Part shown: one piece after another, positions 7,350-22,220 of the stretch | Position numbering within the stretch: position 1 is the stretch's first letter | How the letters are laid out: each line of letters begins with the position of its first letter | DNA from: Dichotomicrobium thermohalophilum | GTDB taxonomy: Bacteria; Pseudomonadota; Alphaproteobacteria; Rhizobiales; Rhodomicrobiaceae | Direction of reading: 5' to 3' | DNA: 64,000 nucleotides | Assembly: GCF_003550175.1 (NCBI RefSeq) | Contig: NZ_QXDF01000002.1 | Span: 124,001 to 188,000 of the forward strand | Made by a program: the position numbers and the translations under genes | The notes under the pieces: generated by a model | What the model was told of the DNA's origin: nothing | What the model saw: only the letters and a program-made list of their open reading frames with translations | Databases searched by the model: none

Positions 7350-7454
7350 CGCCCTCCAGGGGCAACGCTCAGGCGAAGTCCGATTCCCTGTTCGCGTTTT
7401 GCGCGACGGTCCTTTTATTTGGCCTCAAATCTATCTATATTACGTGTGTCAGCT

Positions 7455-7795
7455 TGGCTGACTATGGCGATAAACGGCCGTCGGAATAAGCCCATCGGAC
7501 CCGGGGGCAGTACCCGGCGCCTCCACCATAAACCCGCTCTCCACAGGCGCGCTGCACGGGCGGACGCGGGTTTTTGATGGGGGCGAACTAGGATCGACGA
7601 GGGTGTAAAGGACGGACCTTCGCCCGGCATGGTACCGCCGTTACAGGACCACAAACAGTAGTTGCGAACGACAACTATGCTCCGGTTGCTCAGGCTGCGT
7701 AAGGCAGCTTAGGCACCGAAATTCAAAGTCCTGGGCACTAAGCACGCCCAGGCGCGGTACGGAGGGCACCGGGCAACAGAAGCCCTCCATCTTAT
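7455..7795 (+). ncRNA. ssrA: Transfer-messenger RNA, circularly permuted two-piece form
   Basis: tmRNA rescues stalled ribosomes and adds a degradation tag. The gene is permuted, as in alphaproteobacteria generally. The acceptor piece comes first and ends CGCCTCCACCA (3' CCA at 7528), preceded by the T-arm CCGGG/CCCGG with a GGCAGTA loop. An intervening loop follows, then the coding piece starts GGGGGCG at 7579. GGGGGCG pairs with CGCCTCC to form the full 7-bp acceptor stem (one G-U). The tag frame GCG AAC GAC AAC TAT GCT CCG GTT GCT CAG GCT GCG TAA (7664-7702) encodes ANDNYAPVAQAA. Outer ends are approximate; the TATATT at 7436-7441 could be a -10 box. sspB, whose product recognises this tag, lies just downstream. 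Confidence 0.95.
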
Positions 7796-18831: not shown

Positions 18832-18910
18832 TCGTGAAAACGGGGGCGGTCGGAGACCGTCCCCGGCCTTCGCCGCAGCGGTAAGGGATGGCCCTGCACC
18901 GCAAAAGAAA

Positions 18911-18940
18911 GGGCGCGATCACCGCGCCCTTTTTATTTCT
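18911..18940 (+). terminator. Rho-independent terminator of the proVWX operon
   Basis: Stem GGGCGCG / CGCGCCC with the loop ATCAC, followed by a T-rich run TTTTTATTTCT. A second, stronger hairpin without a T run lies just upstream at 18842-18864 (10-bp stem GGGGGCGGTC / GACCGTCCCC, loop GGA), 11 bases after the proX stop, and may protect the mRNA end. Confidence 0.85.
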
Positions 18941-18966
18941 TTCGATATTTTTCGGTCGTAAGGCGC

Positions 18967-19383
18967 CTATTCGTCGCGATAGATCTTCTCGCGCTTCTCG
19001 TGCCGCTCCTGCGCCTCGACGCTCAGCGTCGCGATCGGCCGGGCATCAAGCCGCTTCACGCCAATGGGTTCGCCCGTCTCTTCGCAATAGCCGTAGGTAC
19101 CGTCCTCGATCCGCTCCAGCGCCGCGTCGATCTTGGCGATTAGCTTGCGCTGCCGATCCCGCGCGCGCAGTTCCAGCGCCCGGTCGGTTTCCGAGGAGGC
19201 GCGGTCCGTCAGGTCGGGATGCTGTTCGGAGTCCTGAAGATTGTCGAGTGTCTCACGGCTTGAGCGCAAAATTTCGTCTTTCCAGTCGAGGAGTTTCCTC
19301 CGGAAATATTCGCGCTGCCGGTCGTTCATAAACGGTTCGTCTTCCGACGGCCGATAATCGTCCGGCAGGTCCGTCACGCCCAT
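18967..19383 (-). CDS. dksA: RNA polymerase-binding protein DksA
   Basis: Transcription factor that enters the RNA polymerase secondary channel and acts with ppGpp. The 138 residues have a coiled-coil domain (about 20-100) and a C-terminal globule. The usual four-cysteine zinc finger is mostly lost: GTYGYCEETGEPI keeps only one Cys, and the second pair is replaced within ARPIATLSVEAQERHEKRE. This one-cysteine form is known among alphaproteobacterial DksA proteins, so the gene is not defective. The ATG at 19383 matches the family start MGVTDLPDDYRPSEDEPFMN; 24 upstream codons in frame are not conserved. A good promoter lies about 210 bases upstream. Confidence 0.93.
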   Translation of the reverse strand: MGVTDLPDDYRPSEDEPFMNDRQREYFRRKLLDWKDEILRSSRETLDNLQDSEQHPDLTDRASSETDRALELRARDRQRKLIAKIDAALERIEDGTYGYCEETGEPIGVKRLDARPIATLSVEAQERHEKREKIYRDE

Positions 19384-19591
19384 GCATGCCTCTTTGAAAG
19401 TGATTGGCGTCTCAACGCACACGTTTCGAATTCGGCCGGCGCGGGGCCGATCCACGGTCGCTTGAAGCTGGCGGTTCGTGGCTTCATCCAGCCCTGGGGA
19501 GGCTCTCCCTCTGCTCGCCGGCGTCCGACGCTTCTCATCTGCCCAAAACGAAGCGGTCTTTGTGTGGGACCGATGCCACAGATTTCCGCTG

Positions 19592-19619
19592 TCTATGTAC
19601 CGTTATGCCGTAGGGTGTC
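19592..19619 (-). promoter_or_regulatory. Likely sigma70 promoter of dksA
   Basis: On the minus strand a consensus -35 TTGACA (bases 19614-19619), a 16-base spacer, and TACATA (19592-19597). Transcription would run left into dksA, with a leader of about 200 bases. Confidence 0.45.
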
Positions 19620-19681
19620 AAGTCTTGGGAAAGGGGGGCGGTTCAAGCGGAAGGCAGGTCAGCTTCCTGCGCCGAACCGCA

Positions 19682-20632
19682 TCACGCTGCCCAGCGCATG
19701 TCCTCGCGCGGACCGCTGTCGGCAAAGGCAGCGACGCCCAGAAGACCGACCCGACCGTTATCGAAACAGCCCAGAACCCGGCCGTCTTCGCGTAACGCCA
19801 CCTCCCGCAGGGCGGCCTGCGGCCAGCCGTTCTGTGAACAGGCGAGCACCTTGATCAGTCCTGTGCTGTCCGGGAATTGCGTCAGGCCACAGCGACCGAA
19901 TTCGAAGCTCACTGGATCAAGTCCGCGCCCGAGATCCAGCATCACGGGGACGTGGTCAGCCAGTCGCCCGCGCGCATCGAAGGCGAAGTCCTGATCCACG
20001 GCCTGCCACCCGCGGGCAGCCGCCGGCGTCGTGAGCGCATCGCTCATGACGCGGTAAAGCAGCCGCCAGCGATCCGCCCCGATTTTCGCCCAGCGTAGCC
20101 GGACTGTGACGGCGCGCCCGCGACTGTCGAAAATGCGGATCTCGCCGCCAGCCAGCGCCTGTTGCGCGAGCGTGTCGGGCGCGGTGTCCAATTCTTCGCC
20201 CGGCTGTGTCGCCGGGTTGCTGGGCAGGTTCGCCTTGTAGCGGATCGTGCTTGTGCCGCGCGCCGGCATGACGGGGCCTTCCTCCAGGCGGATCGGTGTT
20301 AGGCGCAGCCCCTGCGCCGGCCCGTCGCTATCGTCCGCCCGACCCATCAGCACCAGGCCCTCGTCATTGACCAGATAGCCGAGGCGGTCGGGCACGAAAT
20401 CAAGCTGGCTTGTCAAGCGCGGCGTGGTATCGAAGATGAGTTGATCGTCCTCCATGGCGACCGGCGCGCCGGCGTAAACCGGTCGCGGCGCCGGAGCTTC
20501 CTCGCGCGGCGGCTGTGCGGTCCAGGGGGCGGAAGGCGCATCGGGCTGGAGATAGCGCGCAATATCCTCAAGCCGTGAGATCGGCTTGCCGATCTGGCTC
20601 ATCGCGGTGCTGAACAGGCGATAGGCCCACAT
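19682..20632 (-). CDS. Flagellar hook protein FlgE-like protein lacking the D0 helices
   Basis: The 316-residue protein resembles the middle of FlgE. DRLGYLVNDEGLVLMGRADD matches the hook segment around GxLVNxxGYYLMG; TSTIRYKANLPSNPAT matches the D2 entry; EIRIFDSRGRAVTVRLRWAK matches the D2 core; and GLTQFPDSTGLIKVLACSQNGWP with LREDGRVLGCFDNGRVGLLG matches the D1 return strand. The conserved N-terminal and C-terminal D0 coiled-coil helices that build the hook are replaced by an unrelated proline-rich start and a short end. No flagellar genes are nearby, so a true hook role is unlikely. The first ATG at 20632 is used; MSQIGKPISR ten codons later is an alternative. Confidence 0.65.
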   Translation of the reverse strand: MWAYRLFSTAMSQIGKPISRLEDIARYLQPDAPSAPWTAQPPREEAPAPRPVYAGAPVAMEDDQLIFDTTPRLTSQLDFVPDRLGYLVNDEGLVLMGRADDSDGPAQGLRLTPIRLEEGPVMPARGTSTIRYKANLPSNPATQPGEELDTAPDTLAQQALAGGEIRIFDSRGRAVTVRLRWAKIGADRWRLLYRVMSDALTTPAAARGWQAVDQDFAFDARGRLADHVPVMLDLGRGLDPVSFEFGRCGLTQFPDSTGLIKVLACSQNGWPQAALREVALREDGRVLGCFDNGRVGLLGVAAFADSGPREDMRWAA

Positions 20633-20753
20633 GTCGCTACTCCCGACAATCTCCGGTGCCGTGCGCTACCCAAGGCGGCAAATTTCAATTTGACACGAAA
20701 GTGATTAACGAATTGACAACGCATGACTCACCCCGGCCAGCGGATTGCCGTGC

Positions 20754-22220
20754 ATGAGCCTCACCGATTTCACCGGCAAACCGACTGATGCGCTGCGCAA
20801 CGCCGGCGCGTTGGCCAGCGACCTCATACGGCCGACCGTGCGTCTCGGTGTGACGGGGCTGGCGCGCGCGGGCAAGACGGTGTTCATCACCTCAATTGTG
20901 CACAACCTGCTGCATGGCGGGCGCCTGCCGTTTTTCGATCCGATGGCGCAGGGCCGGATCGTGCGCGTGTACCTGGAGCCGCAGCCGGACGACGACGTAC
21001 CCCGCTTTGCTTATGAGGACCACCTGGCCGCCATGACCGGCGCGGACCGAGACTGGCCGGAGAGCACGCGGCATATCAGCGAACTGCGCCTGACGATCGA
21101 ATACGAGCCGGAAGCGTTCTGGCGGCGGCAGCTTGGCCCGGCGCGGTTGCACATCGACATCGTCGACTATCCGGGCGAGTGGCTGCTCGATTTGGCGCTT
21201 CTGGACATGAGCTATGAGACGTGGTCGCGCCTCGCGCTGGAGATGGCCGAGCGGCCCGAGCGGGCTCAGGCGGCCGCGCCGTTTCGACGGTTTCTGCGCG
21301 AGGTTGATCCATCCGGCGCGCAGGAGGAGGCGCAGGCGCGGGAGGGCGCGCAACTCTTCACCGACTATCTGCGTGCAAGCCGGGATGCCGCGCTCGGGCT
21401 GGTGGCAACGCCGGGGCGCTTCCTGCTGCCCGGCCAGTTCGAGGGGACGCCTGCCGTTACATTCTGTCCCTTGCCGCCGCCGGAGGGCCAAAAGCCGGGG
21501 CGCGGCACGCTTTGGGCGATGATGGACCGGCGCTTCGAGTCCTACAAATCCGCGGTGGTACGTCCCTTCTTCCGCGACCACTTTGCGCGGCTGGACCGGC
21601 AGATCGTGCTGGTCGACGTGCTGTCCGCGCTGGCGAACGGGGCGCAGGCAATGGCCGAGGTGGAGCGGGCGCTGGCACGCATTCTCGAATGCTTCAATCC
21701 GGGTGCCAAGAGCTGGCTGGAGCTGGTGCTGGGCCGACGGATCGACCGGGTACTGTTCGCCGCGACCAAGGCCGATCATGTTCACAGTGAAAGCCACGAC
21801 CGGCTGGAGGCGATCCTGCGGCACATGGTGCGCGCGGCGTCCGGACGGGCGGAAGGCGCGGGGGCGGACGTCGATGCGGTGGCGCTGGCGGCGGTGCGCG
21901 CGACGCGGGAGGCGGAGGTGCGCCAGGGAGGCGAGCCGCTGCCAACGGTGGTGGGCTGCCCCCGCGCAGGCGAGCAGGTCGGCGGCGAGAGCTTCGACGG
22001 CACGCGCGAGGCGGCGATCTTCCCCGGCGACTTGCCGGCGGACCCGGCCGCCGCGCTCGCGCCGGACTTCACCCTCACGGATGCGTCTGGTGGCGAATTC
22101 GCTTTCGTTCGCTTCCGCCCGCCGAAACTGCAGCGAGGCGCCCTTGGCGAACTCCCGCCGCTGCCGCATATCCGGCTGGACCGCGCGCTCAACTTCCTGA
22201 TCGGAGACCGCATCGCATGA
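20754..22220 (+). CDS. ycjX: YcjX family P-loop NTPase
   Basis: Conserved YcjX/DUF463 GTPase-like protein of 488 residues. The P loop GLARAGKTVF lies near residue 36 and the Walker B-like DIVDYPGEWLLDL near 138, followed by DMSYETWSR. In Enterobacteria the gene sits in the phage-shock/envelope-stress region next to ycjF, as it does here; the molecular role is not settled. The ATG at 20754 (MSLTDFTGKPTDALRNA) is preferred to the TTG nine bases upstream. Its last four bases overlap the ycjF start. Confidence 0.92.
   Translation: MSLTDFTGKPTDALRNAGALASDLIRPTVRLGVTGLARAGKTVFITSIVHNLLHGGRLPFFDPMAQGRIVRVYLEPQPDDDVPRFAYEDHLAAMTGADRDWPESTRHISELRLTIEYEPEAFWRRQLGPARLHIDIVDYPGEWLLDLALLDMSYETWSRLALEMAERPERAQAAAPFRRFLREVDPSGAQEEAQAREGAQLFTDYLRASRDAALGLVATPGRFLLPGQFEGTPAVTFCPLPPPEGQKPGRGTLWAMMDRRFESYKSAVVRPFFRDHFARLDRQIVLVDVLSALANGAQAMAEVERALARILECFNPGAKSWLELVLGRRIDRVLFAATKADHVHSESHDRLEAILRHMVRAASGRAEGAGADVDAVALAAVRATREAEVRQGGEPLPTVVGCPRAGEQVGGESFDGTREAAIFPGDLPADPAAALAPDFTLTDASGGEFAFVRFRPPKLQRGALGELPPLPHIRLDRALNFLIGDRIA

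Follow-up and report, generated by a model that had tools for sequence, protein, structure and literature searches.

A D0-less flagellar hook core retained with and without flagella in the family of Dichotomicrobium thermohalophilum

In flagellar hooks, the D0 halves of the axial protein FlgE make up the inner tube and contribute to export, and loss of a flagellum is expected to remove the hook gene as well. The gene reported here has its closest described counterparts within this machinery. It shares the D1-D2 core sequence and the predicted fold of FlgE itself (FlgE31, 1wlg; NF004242), from which it differs in having no D0 at either end, in carrying cysteines and in turning up in genomes that lack rod and FlhA genes. 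The rod proteins FlgF and FlgG belong to the same superfamily (TIGR03506, FlgEFG, E 1.1e-7), but no FlgF- or FlgG-specific model appeared among the 10 NCBIfam matches of our protein at E values up to 10, and FlgE2 of Helicobacter pylori (5npy), a hook-type protein, has the same core fold (Z 11.3) but a very weak sequence match (E 1.2). Closest of all are the FlgE proteins of other Hyphomicrobiales, which begin with MGIF or a similar start and are probably subpolar, a label reached by elimination. The actinobacterial homologues of FlgE described in a passage of PMC10746217 are missing D2 rather than D0, and the titles and abstract openings of the best literature matches listed contained no report of a D0-less FlgE-core protein.

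The window analysed here is a stretch of 64,000 nucleotides (contig NZ_QXDF01000002.1, positions 124,001 to 188,000), on whose minus strand an intact, ATG-initiated open reading frame of 316 amino acids occupies 19682..20632, with a likely ribosome-binding site, GGGAG, read from the sequence 7 nt upstream of the ATG (20640..20644, minus strand). This orphan gene sits between dksA (18967..19455, minus strand; NCBIfam dksA, 2e-43), its downstream neighbour in the same orientation, and a divergent pair consisting of ycjX (DUF463; 20745..22220, plus strand; Pfam, 6.6e-168), 112 nt away, and a DUF697/TIGR01620 gene; a YkuD gene and a ProV/W/X-type transporter complete the neighbours examined in the window, none of which is flagellar. 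The original prediction had described a protein resembling the D1/D2 segments of FlgE, lacking the FlgE termini and having no flagellar genes nearby; the segments that it quoted, YKANLPSNPAT and RLRWAKIG among them, are all found in the frame, and each of the three observations is borne out by the results given here. Elsewhere in the window, a tmRNA lies at 7433-7793, with the tag ANDNYAPVAQAA.

Three NCBIfam FlgE models match the 316-residue protein, at 1.1e-16 (NF004242), 1.4e-13 and 1.9e-10, and phmmer pairs its residues 81-309 with 1wlg, the core fragment FlgE31 (2.7e-9). Residues 47-316 (19685..20494, minus strand), aligned to residues 77-333 of 1wlg, represent the D1-D2 core, within which the D2 part (residues 161-253; 19874..20152, minus strand) is recognized by PF07559, FlgE_D2, with 19 bits and E 0.0021, below the curated cut-off of 22.7 bits. 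All NCBIfam FlgE scores likewise stay below their cut-offs, for NF004242 at 60.7 against 365 bits, a weak criterion in that the family's own full-length FlgE proteins (227-253 bits) and four control genomes miss it too. An AlphaFold2 model, computed from an alignment in which nine FlgE proteins and a pair of orphan relatives accompanied the window protein, adopts the FlgE31 fold with a mean pLDDT of 77 and matches 1wlg in Foldseek (E 6.5e-15) and VIA-align (Z 16.0, with 238 residues superposed at rmsd 3.7), although, given the FlgE proteins in the input alignment, the structural match cannot count as evidence separate from the sequence match. Taken together, the NCBIfam, phmmer and VIA-align scores rule out a chance similarity, and by them the frame is homologous to the D1-D2 core of FlgE; profile search and structure prediction were among the checks proposed at the outset. 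Weak LAMTOR4 rows in phmmer and unrelated structural rows under Z 4 were taken as chance.

Neither D0 segment is matched, since the FlgE matches from Pfam, NCBIfam and phmmer are all confined to residues 70-309, none starting before or ending past these limits. In place of the N-terminal half, residues 1-40 (20513..20632, minus strand) form a low-confidence tail (pLDDT below 50) that is weakly conserved across genera. The D0 halves of seven FlgE proteins, used as queries, gave no match at E ≤ 1 within 18900-21000 and a best E of 0.37, away from the frame, in the entire window; as a control, the same queries detect the FlgE of locus L106 at 5e-19 to 1e-29, self-matches excluded. With no D0 similarity around the gene a frameshifted or split flgE is ruled out, and the broken frame and nearby remnants of missing parts that would mark a flgE pseudogene are both lacking in the window frame. 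Going by its domain content, the protein is expected to be unable to polymerise into a hook.

The family was sampled in eight genomes from four genera, among them the window's own genome (G000), a Hyphomicrobiales MAG (G001), Rhodomicrobium sp. R_RK_3 (G002) and a genus represented by four genomes (g4). The window genome (2.99 Mb, 99.84% complete) yielded no match to FHIPEP (PF00771), Flg_bbr_C (PF06429) or Flg_bb_rod (PF00460) at E ≤ 0.001, and its sole FlgE match is the 316-residue frame; by these marker genes it appears to have no flagellum. A D0-less FlgE-core protein occurs in seven of the eight genomes, including all six that are at least 90% complete, the exception being G007 (88% complete), in which a true FlgE was found and no orphan. 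Full-length FlgE proteins of 412-422 residues together with rod proteins are encoded in G001, G003, G005, G006 and G007, and in the first four of these the orphan stands beside the different, full-length FlgE. G000, G002 and G004, on the other hand, gave no rod match, and the orphan is their sole hook match; each of these three retains it as an intact frame. The original prediction had proposed looking for the gene in non-motile relatives, and it is indeed present in all three family genomes without flagellar genes, as it is in four of the five that have them. FHIPEP matches are lacking in G000 and G004. G002 has an FHIPEP protein that is an SctV of a non-flagellar type III system; G006 has two, of which one is likewise SctV; that of G005 is FlhA, and G001, G003 and G007 encode FHIPEP proteins as well. 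The orphans measure 316 residues in the window genome, 381 from the first ATG in G002 and 255 from the likely start in g4, and that of G001 is cut at a contig end that puts its C-terminus out of view. We define a D0-less FlgE-core family, consisting of the FlgE core without D0 and found in seven genomes of four genera as one clade.

Beyond the family, 397 genomes of the order were drawn evenly, with a completeness of 90 asked and at most five candidates scored per genome, and 387 genomes of the class were searched at E ≤ 1e-30, limits under which a more diverged orphan elsewhere would escape notice. Among the order matches listed (to about E 3e-37), all those outside the family have frames of at least 435 residues, and the Hyphomicrobiales FlgE sequences read there carry both D0 ends, unlike the orphans. 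When all candidates were rechecked in 12 genomes of the order, two of them previously without a match and the other ten with weak ones, matches at E ≤ 0.01 came from 10, all with frames of at least 422 residues; the class survey gave 12 non-window matches in 11 genomes, with frames of at least 452 residues and none short. An extension of the D0-less family beyond the eight family genomes is therefore unsupported, the survey matches outside it all being long frames. An initial contig scan with the window protein alone as query had given no match, and a weak match in genome G011, containing one stop and covering residues 7-76 at E 4.1e-4, was put down to chance, the corresponding locus L049 showing no orphan match.

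The gene's provenance can be approached through its position as well as its sequence. In nine of 12 full-length FlgE loci, and in all three further loci considered (L050-L052), flgE has a divergent AAA-ATPase gene at a distance of less than 1 kb; L103 and L108 lack it near flgE, and in L116 it is some 4 kb off. This gene, called moxR here, gave in NCBIfam only a match below the cut-off, to an ATPase of the MadB type. In Rhodomicrobium sp. R_RK_3 the orphan occupies just this divergent flgE slot, 122 nt from the AAA-ATPase gene, a position it shares with flgE of other Hyphomicrobiales, whereas neither the window nor G001 has the ATPase gene next to its orphan. Likewise, ycjX is close to flgE in several other Hyphomicrobiales loci, and in L108 the two genes are divergent, about 0.9 kb apart, an orientation that orphan and ycjX share in the window. 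From these positions and the sequence identities below, the gene seems to descend from flgE at that gene's old position.

Phylogenetic analysis was based on 244 core columns and 50 rows, namely seven orphans, five family FlgE proteins and 38 other FlgE proteins (among them L095, whose frame is truncated at the edge of its locus), obtained by reducing 95 distinct frames to 63 (orphans, family FlgE and frames with the QQAY motif) and removing 13 frames of at least 570 residues. The seven orphans form one clade (UFBoot 96), and the FlgE in use by flagellated family members forms a separate one (support 100). The backbone next to the orphans is weak, with supports of 18 and 26, too low to fix their exact sister group, and the orphans evolve fast, with 28-36% identity to the window copy and long branches, so that long-branch attraction may contribute to their grouping. 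Over these same columns the window protein has identities of 30-38% with the 38 FlgE proteins from other families but of 19-24% with the five from its own; for the G002 orphan the corresponding ranges are 31-41% and 20-22%. By these identities the orphans resemble the FlgE of other families more than that of their own.

Two flagellar systems in this order are described in section 3.4 and Table 1 of PMC6406911, where Table 1 assigns two Rhodomicrobium species, whose genomes may differ from the present ones, a lateral and no subpolar flagellum, and the conclusions speak of a tendency to retain one of the two systems. Given these passages, the orphan would most simply be the leftover of a lost subpolar flgE, with "subpolar" again a label by elimination. 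This bears on the fragment of a disrupted flgE that the original prediction had named as the outcome that would overturn it: descent from flgE at its old position holds up, but a fresh fragment does not, because the gene is common to four genera and under purifying selection in the one of them that allowed a good measurement.

A slowly decaying relic is a different matter, in which the frame would be non-functional in the window genome even if its relatives make use of theirs. Out of 20 pairs examined for dN/dS (YN00 gave no value for three), the six among the four g4 orphans range over 0.11-0.26 by NG86 and 0.08-0.21 by YN00, and by these ratios the orphan is under purifying selection in that genus; two neighbouring genes in g4 have lower values of 0.01-0.08. 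The G001 and G002 orphans give 0.25 (NG86 only). For the window copy against G002 the value is 0.69 (NG86), uninformative at so high a dS (1.1), and differences at codon positions 1, 2 and 3 (0.51, 0.47 and 0.61) constitute a weak coding signal. For this copy, a selection signal too poor to measure, the weak codon-position bias and the fast evolution speak for a relic, and the weak backbone around the orphans slightly strengthens this reading while slightly weakening the one we prefer. Against it stand the intact 316-residue frame with its ribosome-binding motif, the intact frames of the other two genomes without rod or hook genes, and a substitution-only simulation (500 runs) in which neutrally evolving frames remained stop-free in 5.4% of runs at 0.3 changes per site and in 0.2% at 1.0. 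On balance we regard decay in the window genome as unlikely, though it is the alternative to be taken most seriously.

The orphans also depart from FlgE in composition. All seven contain two to five cysteines, and none occurs in 42 of the 43 FlgE rows (the same rows as in the tree), the sole cysteine-bearing row having its two upstream of the likely start. No strongly hydrophobic stretch was found in the four orphans measured, the highest 19-residue mean in the window protein being 1.28. From the cysteines, the absence of such a stretch and the loss of D0 we infer that the orphan product is probably cytoplasmic. An exported, adhesin-like surface protein, for instance one secreted by a type III system other than the flagellar one, would accord with the extracellular nature of hooks and with the SctV-type genes of G002 and G006, but the window genome and G004 have no FHIPEP match, the protein has neither a signal-like hydrophobic stretch nor a type III export end, and cysteines have been gained; the surface protein contemplated in the original prediction consequently fits poorly, and we consider it very unlikely.

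Much the same holds for the regulator or decoy put forward there, a D0-less hook core that would titrate a hook chaperone, FlgD or a length-control factor. Such a role would be in keeping with the coexistence of orphan and true FlgE in four of five flagellated family genomes, but it is hard to reconcile with retention in all three family genomes without rod or hook genes, and with a sequence closer to the FlgE of other families than to the family's current one; we give it little credence. Exaptation, the remaining suggestion, is the best-fitting of the original readings.

We accordingly favour, as somewhat more probable than the alternatives combined, that the gene is the core of a lost flagellum's flgE, retained as a non-polymerising, non-exported cytoplasmic binding or scaffold module unrelated to motility. 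An ancestor of the family would have lost a flagellar system, of whose flgE the orphan would be the remnant; both D0 halves would have gone and the folded D1-D2 core would have been kept; the product would be a soluble, cytoplasmic protein that neither polymerises nor is exported; and its beta domains may serve binding or scaffolding in a process apart from motility. A new function for this D0-less hook descendant is likely, and the retention of the shortened gene with and without flagella suggests reuse of one component of a swimming apparatus since lost. Whether this amounts to full domestication, with an axial protein turned into an intracellular housekeeping one whose role is independent of motility, we judge to be an even call. 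If the favoured account is true, a hook core has outlived its whole system, having shed the ends that polymerise and acquired cysteines, a clear case of a second life for a machine part. A FlgE match in an annotation need not imply a flagellum.

No gene neighbour is constant enough across the orphan loci to name a partner. The gene adjoins dksA in both the window and Rhodomicrobium sp. R_RK_3, but the g4 neighbourhood differs from theirs, and since dksA there and a glucan exporter in g4 disagree, no function was drawn from neighbours. The g4 exporter, of the chvA/ndvA type, lies downstream on the same strand at 52 nt (L042) or 65 nt (L043), and in L042:7861-10441 orphan and exporter (NF010178, 1.9e-251) form a possible operon. 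Between orphan and ycjX, G001 and G002 encode related proteins (L048:1438-2283 and L047:11835-12890), 57% identical in part; the former has no Pfam match, and the pair is without a match in the window at 1e-6. Farther along the Rhodomicrobium sp. R_RK_3 locus, within L047:136-5085, three frames of regularly spaced cysteine repeats (136-807, 588-1832 and 1826-2830, the first and third without a Pfam match) are followed by a radical SAM protein (L047:3409-5085; PF04055, 9.3e-11), and the whole resembles a cluster for radical-SAM-modified peptides whose precursors are large repeat proteins.
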